A DNA stretch of 64,000 bases from an uncultured Fodinibius sp. (lineage in GTDB: Bacteria > Bacteroidota > Rhodothermia > Balneolales > Balneolaceae), in NCBI GenBank assembly GCA_913057775.1, contig CAJXOG010000008.1, forward strand, positions 62,001-126,000. Direction: 5' to 3'. Shown here in pieces: positions 60,981 through 64,000 of the stretch (position 1 is the stretch's first letter; every line of letters begins with the position of its first letter). The notes below the pieces were generated by a model. The model did no database searches. It saw only the letters and a list, made by a program, of their open reading frames with translations, and had not been told where the DNA came from. The translations under genes were made by a program, and so were the position numbers.

Positions 60981-61162
60981 GAGGGGATAATTCTTAAGGG
61001 GTTAAAACCAAATATTTCATGTGAGGAGAAGTTATATTAATTCCAAAGTAGGAATGTTATTGGTTATACTTTGTTTTTAACTAGATACTTTTCTAGGGTT
61101 GTAGTGACACTTTACCACCGCCAAGATCAATAAAAGGGAATAAATTTAAGTTTTTGGGGATT

Positions 61163-61978
61163 ATGGATGCTTTGCCGCAAAAAAGAATATTTAAAAAAGA
61201 TAGCTGCTTAGAAAATCTTATCGATGAAAGACAAAAAATAAATTCTATTAATAAAAAAATTCAGTACTTCCCAGATCCAAGTACTGAGTTTTGTAATGGG
61301 ATTAAGTGGGGCTCTTATAAAGAGGTTTTTACACCGGCTTACTGGAAATTGCAGTATTTAATACATGAAGAAAGTGAAGAAAAAATAGAAAATAGATTAG
61401 GTACAGATATATTAGAAGAAATTTCAGCCTGTATGCTTGGAGGGTTTGGGATCCCTTCAAACGTTGGTATAGCTGCATTCCATCGCTTAAAACAAAATAA
61501 TTTGCTTAAGCCTGGAGCTAGCAAAACAAAAATCCAAGAAGTATTGTCGGAACCAATACAAACTTCATCGGGGAATACAGTGCATTATCGATTTGTCAAC
61601 CAAAAGAGTAAATATTTGGCATTGTTTCTAAATAGAGACGATATATATGATATACCAACAGAAGATGCCTATGAGTTAAGGAAATGGCTATTGCAAATCA
61701 AAGGAATTGGCTTAAAAACAGCTTCTTGGATAACACGAAATTGGTTGGAAAGTGATAGAGTTGCAATTATAGATATACATTTATTGCGTGCGGGTAGGTT
61801 GACTGGAATATTTCCAGAAGTGAACGATATAAATTCTCATTATTTATTTTTAGAATCTCAATTTGTAGAGTTTTGTGAAAAATTAAATGTTAAAGCTTCA
61901 ATAATGGATGCTATAATGTGGCACCAAATGAGACGCTCAAATAGTTTTGCATTAAAAATGCTAAATACAATTAACTAA
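61163..61978 (+). CDS. OGG-like HhH-GPD DNA glycosylase (defence-associated)
   Basis: A protein of 271 residues from the ATG at 61163; a TTG three codons upstream is possible. The N-terminal ~150 residues are a helical, unusual front part. The C-terminal half is a helix-hairpin-helix glycosylase: LLQIKGIGLKTASWITRNW with the Lys at the position of the bifunctional OGG1 nucleophile, and VAIIDIHLLRAGRL with the catalytic Asp. The enzyme would be expected to remove an oxidised or modified guanine and nick the DNA, if these residues act as in OGG1. The sequence is A+T-rich like its downstream neighbours, with which it forms a compact operon. Confidence 0.85.
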   Translation: MDALPQKRIFKKDSCLENLIDERQKINSINKKIQYFPDPSTEFCNGIKWGSYKEVFTPAYWKLQYLIHEESEEKIENRLGTDILEEISACMLGGFGIPSNVGIAAFHRLKQNNLLKPGASKTKIQEVLSEPIQTSSGNTVHYRFVNQKSKYLALFLNRDDIYDIPTEDAYELRKWLLQIKGIGLKTASWITRNWLESDRVAIIDIHLLRAGRLTGIFPEVNDINSHYLFLESQFVEFCEKLNVKASIMDAIMWHQMRRSNSFALKMLNTIN

Positions 61979-61985
61979 ATATAAT

Positions 61986-62303
61986 ATGTCAGGATCATCA
62001 GGTGGAATTGGACCCTCTATTGGTCAGGAGGAAAGTTGCGAAGACCTTTCAATTCAAACTCATTTATCATCTCCAAATCCCGATATAATTGATACACTTA
62101 ATGAAGGAGATATTTTAACTATACGTTTAGGTGGAGCAACAGGACCTATTGAACTCGTTACGAATGAAGGCGAAGTGGTGGGTTCTTTACTCTCTGGTCG
62201 ACAAATGAAGTTGATTGAGTGTATTAATGATGGCCATCAGTATATTGGTGAGATAAGACAGATTGAAGAGGGTAATTGTGAAATATTGATAAGGTCATCA
62301 TAA
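61986..62303 (+). CDS. Small protein with a conserved Gly/Ser-rich N-terminus
   Basis: A 105-residue protein with an N-terminus MSGSSGGIGPSIGQEESCED, then LSIQTHLSSPNP, DTLNEGDILTIRL and a beta-rich end (GHQYIGEIRQIEEGNCEIL). The compact C-terminal part looks like a small beta barrel. The flexible Gly/Ser head is unusual and I recall similar small proteins beside defence genes. It starts 7 bases after the glycosylase and overlaps the following gene by one base (TAATG). No enzymatic motif is present; it may be a carrier or a target of modification. Confidence 0.6.
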   Translation: MSGSSGGIGPSIGQEESCEDLSIQTHLSSPNPDIIDTLNEGDILTIRLGGATGPIELVTNEGEVVGSLLSGRQMKLIECINDGHQYIGEIRQIEEGNCEILIRSS

Positions 62304-63508
62304 TGAAAATAGTTGGTGGAACTTATGGGGAGTATTGCCTAGAACCTCATTGGGAACAGATTTTCGGTTCTGGACTTAGAGCATGCCTATCAATTAGAGG
62401 TTTAGACAAAGATTATCCATTAAACCTTTTTACGACGGCTGACAATAGGATAAGGCAGTATTTATTGTCATTGAAGGAATCTCATAATCTTAGCTTAAGT
62501 ATTGAGAATATATTTAAGTCGCCTACTTTTGAATATGATTATCCTTTAGCTACGCCAAGGATCAATCCAAGACCAGATGCATACTTTAAAACTCGTCCCT
62601 TATTAGAAGTTGCGGATGACAATGTTTTGTACTTTGGAATGCTAGAAGCAGATGTTAATGTAAAGGGCGATAAGGTTGTTTATGATCCTCAATCTCCTTC
62701 AGTTCCAAAATTATTTTCGGATACGGTATCTGAGGCTAATCAACTAGTTACGGTAGTTAATTTATCAGAAGCTCAACTAATGAGTGGTGAAACCGAGTTA
62801 GATGATATAGTTGAGTATTTTTTTAAAGAAGAAGATTGTTATGGGTTGATTCTTAAAATGGGTGCTAAAGGTGCTTTTCTTTTTGAGGATAAGCAGACTA
62901 GAGTAAATATTCCTGTCTATAAAACAAATAAAGTTTGGCCTATAGGGTCTGGCGACGTATTTACTTCTATTTTTGCATATTTTTGGTTCAATGGCAAATC
63001 TTTAGAAGATTCAGCTAAGAAAGCTTCATTAGCAGCTGCAAGTTATGTCAATTCAAAGGGTTTTAATTTTGAAAGAGCTTTTAGAAATGAACCTTTTGAT
63101 GAGTTATATATTAAGGACTTTCCTAAAGAAAGCATTTATCTTGCAGGTCCTTTCTTCACCTTTTCTCAAAGGTGGTTAATCAGTCAAATCCGCAATTGTT
63201 TAAGTGGTATGGGATTAAAAGTTTTTTCTCCCTTACATGAAATCGGCATTGGAGATGCAGATGAAGTAGTTGAAGAAGATATCAATGCCATTGAGAATTC
63301 AGATTTAATTTTTGCGGTAGTGGATGGTTTAGATTCGGGGACACTATTTGAAATCGGATATGCAGTTTCAAAAGGAAAGCAGGTTATTGCATATACTGAA
63401 AATGAAACTGAAGAATCTTTGAAAATGCTGAAGGGTACCGGTTGTAAAATTGAGAAGGATTTAACTACAGCTATATACAAAACCTTTTGGGAGTTATGTA
63501 ATGGCTAA
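62303..63508 (+). CDS. PfkB-family kinase fused to nucleoside 2-deoxyribosyltransferase
   Basis: A 401-residue two-domain protein. Residues ~1-270 resemble a PfkB/ribokinase fold: the GGTYGEYCLEPHWEQIFGSG opening, NLSEAQLMSG, LILKMGAKGAFLF and the anion-hole motif PIGSGDVFTSIF, which takes the place of the usual GAGD. Residues ~275-400 are a nucleoside deoxyribosyltransferase: SIYLAGPFFTFSQRWLISQI, VFSPLHEIGIGD, DLIFAVVDGLDSGTLFEIGY and GYAVSKGKQVIAY. Glu in TLFEIGY is in the usual nucleophile context. It may split a deoxynucleotide and phosphorylate a product. The gene overlaps both neighbours. Confidence 0.8.
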   Translation: MKIVGGTYGEYCLEPHWEQIFGSGLRACLSIRGLDKDYPLNLFTTADNRIRQYLLSLKESHNLSLSIENIFKSPTFEYDYPLATPRINPRPDAYFKTRPLLEVADDNVLYFGMLEADVNVKGDKVVYDPQSPSVPKLFSDTVSEANQLVTVVNLSEAQLMSGETELDDIVEYFFKEEDCYGLILKMGAKGAFLFEDKQTRVNIPVYKTNKVWPIGSGDVFTSIFAYFWFNGKSLEDSAKKASLAAASYVNSKGFNFERAFRNEPFDELYIKDFPKESIYLAGPFFTFSQRWLISQIRNCLSGMGLKVFSPLHEIGIGDADEVVEEDINAIENSDLIFAVVDGLDSGTLFEIGYAVSKGKQVIAYTENETEESLKMLKGTGCKIEKDLTTAIYKTFWELCNG

Positions 63509-64000
63509 AGCAATATTACTTTCAGGAGGTTTAGATTCAATTGCTTTAGCTTATTGGAAAAGGCCTAACTATGCAATTACCATAAATTATGGTCAAAAAC
63601 CCGCTGAAGGTGAGATTCGAGCTTCCAGAGCTGTAGCCAAAAACTTGGGTCTAGAACATTCAGTTGTAGAAGTTGATTGTAGTAAACTAGGATCTGGGGA
63701 TCTTGCAGGAAAAGAAGCATTAGAGATGGCTCCAGAAAGTGAATGGTGGCCTTATAGAAATCAACTACTTGTAACGTTGGGTTGTATGAAAGGCATTTCA
63801 TTAGGAATTAATGAAATTATTTTGGGTTCGGTAAATTCAGATGATTTTCATGTAGATGGGACTCCAGAATTTTATGAAATGATAAATGAGTTGATATCGC
63901 TGCAAGAGGGTGATATTAAGGTAACTACGCCTGCAATCGAGTATTCAAGTGTAGAATTGATTCAGAAATCAAAGGTACCTAAGAAAGTTTTGTTTTGGGC
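63501..64000 (+). CDS. QueC-like 7-cyano-7-deazaguanine synthase family protein (cut by window end)
   Basis: The first 166 residues of a QueC-like PP-loop ATPase. The ATP-binding SGGLDSIALAYW lies near residues 8-20, then NYGQKPAEGEIRASRAVAKNL and WPYRNQLLVTLG. The last part reads GSVNSDDFHVDGTPEFYEMI, with IKVTTPAIEYSSVELIQKSK. The order matches QueC, but the RN motif context (YRNQ instead of GRN) differs, and the zinc cysteines of the C-terminus lie outside the window. The start overlaps the preceding gene by 8 bases. Divergent QueC copies occur in type IV CBASS (Cap9) and in Qat systems. Confidence 0.85.
   Translation, partial: MAKAILLSGGLDSIALAYWKRPNYAITINYGQKPAEGEIRASRAVAKNLGLEHSVVEVDCSKLGSGDLAGKEALEMAPESEWWPYRNQLLVTLGCMKGISLGINEIILGSVNSDDFHVDGTPEFYEMINELISLQEGDIKVTTPAIEYSSVELIQKSKVPKKVLFW

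Follow-up and report, generated by a model that had tools for sequence, protein, structure and literature searches.

A fusion of a PfkB-like kinase with a nucleoside deoxyribosyltransferase (NDT) lies near the 3' end of the window, a stretch of 64,000 nucleotides from an uncultured Fodinibius sp. (GCA_913057775.1, contig CAJXOG010000008.1, positions 62,001 to 126,000 of the forward strand). With moderate confidence, we interpret this fusion as the sugar- and phosphate-handling enzyme of a QueC-based protein-modification cassette that is probably an anti-phage system. The observed basis of this model is the gene set, the folds, the conserved residues, the queD and queE genes of the host, the tail motif of a small protein, natural gene swaps and a covariation; from these we infer the chemistry of the cassette, each step and the order of steps, and its role in defence.

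The features assigned to the fusion are as follows.
62303..63508, + strand: PfkB-nucleoside deoxyribosyltransferase fusion, 401-aa ORF (Pfam and AlphaFold2 model)
62303..63106, + strand: ribokinase (PfkB) fold domain, residues 1-268 (PF00294 and fold alignment)
62942..62956, + strand: IGSGD anion-hole motif with the catalytic-type Asp218, residues 214-218 (conservation in relatives)
63125..63505, + strand: Nuc_deoxyrib_tr domain, residues 275-401, with the conserved Glu350 (PF05014)

The fusion had been proposed in a preliminary description, and Pfam, the fold model and the relatives all confirm it. In Pfam, both domains were matched, PfkB (PF00294) at residues 122-254 (1.5e-16) and Nuc_deoxyrib_tr (PF05014) at residues 278-370 (8.4e-19; 68.3 bits against a cut-off of 28.8), the NDT half being positioned by this match alone. 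The preliminary description had staked its assignment on a ribokinase fold in residues 1-270; this fold is present, since residues 1-267 of the AlphaFold2 model (pLDDT 95.7, pTM 0.93, from 48 aligned sequences) align to ribokinase-fold kinases, the best being 7agh_A (Z 25.3, rmsd 2.8, 252 aligned). Nucleoside kinases are among the nearest folds, and the PfkB half is a predicted sugar or nucleoside kinase by fold and catalytic residues.

A set of 116 fusion loci, including that of the window, was gathered from genomes, plasmids and viral contigs; in one relative search, 80 of 362 candidates were kept. The kinase motif reads GSGD in 99 of these relatives, GTGD in 16 and GAGD in one, so that GxGD is common to 116/116; the kinase Asp is likewise kept in 116/116, as are the Asn (115/116) and the Glu (116/116) of the NxxE motif. 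IGSGD had been taken as a hint of altered kinase activity, but 115/116 relatives read G[S/T]GD and the Asp and NxxE are conserved; the motif is ordinary for this family, and the idea that it marks a weakened kinase is rejected. The NDT Glu (Glu350 in the window), presumably the catalytic nucleophile of nucleoside 2-deoxyribosyltransferase, is kept in 111/116; the five fusions without it are those of four TGT-carrying loci (L016, L203, L191 and L192) and of L096, which is cut by a contig end. Judged from sequence, both active sites of the fusion look intact. Full-length relatives were found across many phyla, so the fusion is not a chance event, and a chance fusion or an assembly error is ruled out. 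Among phage sequences, 12 records match the NDT part only.

Profiles built from the window proteins were used to search the ORFs of the 116 loci. The QueC-like gene was found in 110 loci, the small protein in 109, a gene for an 8-oxoguanine-glycosylase-like protein (OGG) in 94, a SagB-like gene in 81, a dGTPase-like gene in 15 and an Mrr-like gene in 10; the corresponding counts in the 101 loci with wide flanks are 99, 97, 86, 73, 15 and 10. The six loci scored without QueC comprise three that carry a gene resembling adenylosuccinate synthetase (PurA-like) instead, one whose contig stops 108 bases past the fusion, and two whose flanks were short and in which QueC was present once wider flanks were fetched. 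The idea that the fusion always occurs with QueC fails, in the strict sense, in the three loci where the PurA-like gene replaces it. Among plasmids, the closest matches to the fusion and the closest matches to QueC fall in one and the same set of 24 records.

The gene order in the window is OGG, small protein, fusion and QueC-like gene, with AbiEi-like and type I restriction genes located 5' of the cassette; beyond the end of the window, the QueC-like gene is followed on its 3' side by the SagB-like gene, an Mrr-like nuclease and an SNF2/PLD helicase.
61154..61978, + strand: OGG-HhH DNA glycosylase/lyase-like protein, 274 aa from a TTG start (PF22175, 1.3e-15)
61986..62303, + strand: 105-aa HIRAN-like protein with an N-terminal tail, candidate substrate of the QueC-like ligase (family in 109/116 loci; fold model)
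61986..62036, + strand: N-terminal tail of this protein, residues 1-17, low-confidence and probably disordered (pLDDT 58 in the first block and 72 in the second)
63501..64000, + strand: QueC-like ATP-dependent ligase, which runs past the window end and is whole in L003:7501-8091 (PF06508, 5.2e-24 for the whole protein)
L003:8096-8752, just outside the window and directly 3' of the QueC-like gene: SagB-like dehydrogenase (TIGR03605)

The OGG-like protein also matches NF002305 (7.2e-21, under the cut-off of that family), and its aligned relatives retain a Lys (92/94) and an Asp (94/94) that we take to be the catalytic residues. The profile matches show that the QueC-like and glycosylase-like neighbours named in the preliminary description are both real. 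A pathway shared with them, acting on a base, sugar or phosphate substrate, had been suggested as well; the tie between the genes stands, and the common role is plausible. That description overlooked the 105-aa tailed HIRAN-like ORF, the SagB-like gene just beyond the window and a likely role in protein modification. In three loci a Dam-like adenine methylase gene abuts the convergent OGG gene (L009:9249-9917, L012:9237-9914 and L195:9224-9973). At L003:13152-15222 (- strand), a dGTPase-like gene lies beside a 242-aa gene that lacks a Pfam match, a pair that recurs in some related loci.

The QueC-like enzyme differs from canonical QueC (preQ0 synthase) in having HVDG instead of YPDC, and it scores 76.4 bits for TIGR00364 against a cut-off of 150.3. 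Arg86-Asn87, Asp119 and the four zinc cysteines are each conserved in 110/110 members, and the ATP loop SGGxDS in 104-108 of 110 per position. Asp119 aligns with the Asp of Cap9 and of QueC that reads the guanine edge, a role described for Cap9 by Gao et al. (PMC13279940). At the position of the stacking Tyr of QueC, the 110 members have His (99), Tyr (5), Phe (5) or Met (1). A GSG[D/E]L loop is common to the QueC-like enzyme and Cap9 (9NTO), and is absent from the canonical QueC structures 2PG3 and 3BL5. In the window genome, queD and queE-like genes are adjacent, the QueE-like match lies under the family cut-off and canonical QueC was not found, so synthesis of 7-carboxy-7-deazaguanine (CDG) and its flow to the QueC-like enzyme are putative. 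A QueE-like match was present in 14/14 genomes checked, always under the curated cut-off, and a QueD-family match in 13/14.

Libby et al. 2026 (PMC13329287) define a QueC Cluster 4 with which the QueC-like enzyme shares the cysteine pattern CHx5CxxCxGCxK, SGGxDS and the PF00294-PF05014 neighbour; the spacing from YGQ to Glu is 5 in the window protein, against 6 in the Cluster 4 motif YGQ(x)6E. Their article places the fusion beside Cluster 4 in ~89% of neighbourhoods and reads the pair as purine salvage. The fusion would then swap bases between deoxynucleosides and phosphorylate the product, the QueC-like enzyme would make a free modified base, and the small protein would be a regulator or scaffold. 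We consider such purine or deazapurine salvage unlikely. The PfkB and NDT domain content, this published reading, the nucleoside kinases among the nearest folds and the dGTPase-like HD gene in 15/116 loci speak for it, yet it leaves unexplained the conserved M-[S/G]-G tail and the transfer of that tail to a TIR protein, the OGG and SagB-like genes, and the patchy spread. The words nitroreductase, glycosylase and HIRAN have 0 occurrences in the main text of Libby et al., and a tailed protein, which distinguishes the cassette described here, is not mentioned in the portion of the article consulted.

The small-protein gene lies between OGG and the fusion, directly 5' of the latter. Its product starts with M-[SGATC]-G in 100/106 members; in the baseline, made up of 940 ORFs from related loci that are at least 200 aa long, 14 start in this way. 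Residue 2 is Ser in 93 members, Gly in 10, and Thr, Ala, Cys or Lys in one each, and residue 3 is Gly in 102/107. The tail is rich in Gly and Ser and comprises about 17 residues in the window protein, being longer in other loci. In the fold model (pLDDT 87.2), residues 19-105 resemble lp_0118 (Z 12.2) and the HIRAN domain of HLTF (4xzg_H; Z 9.4, rmsd 2.2, 85 aligned), followed by the HIRAN folds of Rad5 (Z 8.3) and HamB (Z 8.2, with a poor rmsd of 8.2). Pfam HIRAN did not match the window protein, nor was it among the 25 of 34 Pfam families listed for 63 members. The modelled domain is best described as HIRAN-like, a likeness of fold that does not prove binding to DNA ends; compared with HLTF, Rad5 and HamB, it stands alone and carries a tail. 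Two Cys residues (18 and 79 in the window) are invariant in 63/63 aligned small proteins. The haloarchaeal members (L014, L198 and L199) are longer, with an acidic or Gly-rich linker and apparently two copies of the domain.

The HIRAN-like and OGG domains are DNA-directed, NDT and the kinase could together yield a deoxynucleotide, and a Dam-like methylase adjoins OGG in several loci, all of which would suit a system of DNA modification or sensing. A modified deoxynucleotide would be made, the product of the QueC-like enzyme would enter DNA rather than protein, and the HIRAN-like protein and OGG would recognise it in DNA or excise it. This alternative is improbable: the main type of locus lacks a transglycosylase that could insert the base into DNA, TGT occurring in six divergent loci only, and the conservation of the tail is unexplained.

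Modification of the tailed protein itself has parallels in known systems. Deazaguanylation of a protein by a QueC-like enzyme is established for type IV CBASS and suspected for qatABCD, and the tail of the small protein resembles those on which the QueC-like enzymes act in the former and, probably, in the latter. In type IV CBASS, Cap9 and Cap10 likewise combine a QueC-like enzyme that has the GSG[D/E]L loop, a Gly-rich N-terminal tail as substrate and a partner of a base-glycosyl family; in the present cassette the tail is borne by a HIRAN-like protein and mostly has Ser2, an NDT-PfkB fusion takes the place of TGT, and a SagB-like enzyme is added. Type IV CBASS operons also contain OGG. No CD-NTase was found by Pfam among 10 distinct proteins around the fusion. 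The qatABCD system also pairs a QueC-family protein with a partner whose disordered tail bears a conserved N-terminal motif; QatA (KAP ATPase) and QatD (TatD) had no match among the scanned neighbours. Gao et al. (PMC13279940) give the tails as MGGS in the CBASS CD-NTase and MGTS in QatB, and report a Thr in QatC at the CDG-recognising Asp, which the cassette enzyme keeps. Published work describes Cap10 as a member of the TGT family and as a binder of the modified tail. Wassarman et al. (PMC11996544) and PMC10952713 also belong to the prior work.

In the proposed mechanism, the host would make CDG, and the QueC-like enzyme would activate its carboxyl with ATP and couple it to the amine that Met removal exposes at the tip of the small-protein tail (Ser2 or Gly2), the reaction that Cap9 performs on the CD-NTase. 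In Ser2 or Thr2 cassettes, the SagB-like enzyme would act on the side chain of residue 2. At the glycosylic position, the NDT half would then attach a deoxyribosyl group to the conjugated base or take one off, and the PfkB half would phosphorylate that sugar, which would set the state of the conjugate. Finally, OGG would act at DNA ends, to which the HIRAN-like domain may recruit the conjugate. Protein modification is favoured by the conserved gene set, the M[SGATC]G tail, the kept residues of the QueC-like enzyme and its GSG[D/E]L loop, the appearance of the tail on a TIR protein, the exchange of NDT for TGT, the loss of QueC together with a change of the tail, the adjacent queD and queE-like genes, and the patchy spread. 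Against it, most tails have Ser2, whereas the CBASS modification uses Gly2; the stacking Tyr is mostly His; the window genome yielded no canonical QueC and a QueE-like match under the cut-off; SagB and OGG are not universal; the main type has no obvious effector; and Cluster 4 is read as purine salvage in PMC13329287.

Two natural swaps bear on this mechanism. In the rhizobial-type loci (L015, L016, L203, L204, L191/L205 and L192/L206), the NDT half is degraded and a TIR-TGT protein is present. The TGT profile matched in these six loci only, and not at the locus of the window. The gene after QueC encodes in 6/6 of them a ThsB-like TIR protein that starts with MGGGGGG or MGGGSSG (in L205 and L206 the mechanical ORF begins a few codons 5' of MGGGSSG), and L016 has two further TIR proteins that lack the tail. 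Pfam supports the TIR-TGT assignment in L016 and the ThsB assignment in L016 and L015, the other loci being assigned by profile or likeness. In three other loci, the PurA-like gene occupies the QueC slot (PF00709 at 5.2e-42 and 2.5e-43 in the two proteins scanned, the third being assigned by profile), and the small-protein tail reads MSKR in L052 and L076 and MKGG in L065.
L016:7246-8646: TIR-TGT fusion (PF13676 and PF01702, scanned in this locus)
L203:7246-8646: TIR-TGT fusion
L204:7201-8604: TIR-TGT fusion
L052:8222-9406: PurA-like gene in the QueC slot
L065:8115-9365: PurA-like gene in the QueC slot
L076:8125-9369: PurA-like gene in the QueC slot

Both swaps fit a reaction that places a base onto the tail. 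The degradation of the NDT half where TGT appears also suits a base-handling rather than a killing role for this domain. It could otherwise be a hydrolase effector that depletes nucleotides or deoxynucleotides on phage infection and is merely switched by the protein modification, as the conservation of its Glu, the dGTPase-like neighbour in 15/116 loci and the TIR proteins of the divergent type might suggest; given this degradation and the kinase Asp kept in every relative, we regard such an effector as improbable.

The SagB-like enzyme is so named, and not classed as a SagB member, since its best family, TIGR03605 (2.7e-18), scores 66.1 bits against a cut-off of 78.4. Of the Lys-Tyr motif, which we take to be a feature of azoline dehydrogenases, Tyr is present in 82/82 SagB-like proteins and Lys in only 52/82. 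SagB-type azoline dehydrogenases act in the formation of thiazole/oxazole peptides; the substrate of the cassette enzyme would be a protein N-terminus. No YcaO cyclodehydratase was found among the scanned neighbours.

The presence of the SagB-like gene covaries with residue 2 of the small protein. Among 102 loci, Ser2 or Thr2 occurs in 79 with the gene and 11 without it, and Gly2, Ala2 or Cys2 in none with it and 12 without it (Fisher 1e-9, kinship ignored). This count drops 14/116 loci: nine have no called start (L015, L016, L037, L074, L191, L192, L202, L203 and L204), four have no QueC match (L052, L065, L076 and L096) and one has a short flank (L091). In twelve cases the start was assigned manually, with the tail and not SagB as the guide; in L037, where SagB is present, no ATG, GTG or TTG precedes the tail and residue 2 is unreadable. 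A Pagel-type test gave LR 24.6 (p 6e-5) on a tree of a quick kind in which several Gly2 rows sit on long branches, the largest LR in 20 simulations being 6.4. A phylogeny-aware pair test was not significant; of five independent supported pairs, two agree, none opposes and three show no difference in most pairings. Three held-out loci, found after the rule was set, agree 3/3 on SagB (L212 and L213, MSG with the gene; L214, MGG without it). Position 67, in a loop of the QueC-like enzyme, also tracks residue 2, being Asp in 86/91 Ser2 or Thr2 loci against 2/12 others; the association is weaker within SagB-less loci (8/12 against 2/12, p 0.036), and the held-out Gly2 locus L214 has Asp67, counter to the trend.

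The covariation hints at chemistry on the Ser2 side chain, for which an oxazole may be the simplest SagB-like product. In canonical QueC, a second ATP-dependent step converts the amide to the nitrile. We tentatively propose a new protein modification, a nucleobase-oxazole cap made without YcaO, although this is a doubtful extension of the model. The QueC-like enzyme would acylate Ser2 with CDG, a second ATP step would allow the Ser2 hydroxyl to attack the activated amide and form an oxazoline, and the SagB-like flavoenzyme would oxidise the latter to the oxazole. NDT and PfkB would then convert the base to a protein-linked 7-deaza-deoxynucleotide.

The cassette is sparsely distributed, being carried by 6/394, 3/369, 4/385, 1/395 and 4/384 genomes in five draws (the centre genome is counted in each draw) and by 22 of 5,426 complete E. 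coli genomes. Restriction, AbiE, TIR or dGTPase genes lie near several of the loci read, and the two E. coli copies read have integrases nearby, as well as a gene with the annotation anti-phage dGTPase. One E. coli cassette, in strain ABWA45, lies at L208:12001-15614. The patchy spread and these neighbours, tallied without a background rate, fit a defence role. PADLOC matched only the QueC-like gene among the four cassette genes tested, and the SagB-like gene was also unmatched.

The pairing of the fusion with QueC is already known, and within a literature search that lay outside most subscription papers and preprints, the cassette is not described beyond this pairing in Libby et al.; the same search gave no account of the HIRAN-like protein with its tail, of the link to SagB or of the swaps. 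If the model is true, the cassette represents a third and broader deazaguanylation family, in which the tail is constant and the carried domain varies (CD-NTase, QatB, HIRAN-like or TIR); the 'purine salvage' Cluster 4 acquires another role, with a kinase and a deoxyribosyltransferase that act on a protein-linked base, and a new cap chemistry is added. The copies in E. coli genomes make work in laboratory strains feasible. Near a plasmid cassette, a VUT-family gene, annotated as queuosine salvage, is located at L011:8501-9040.
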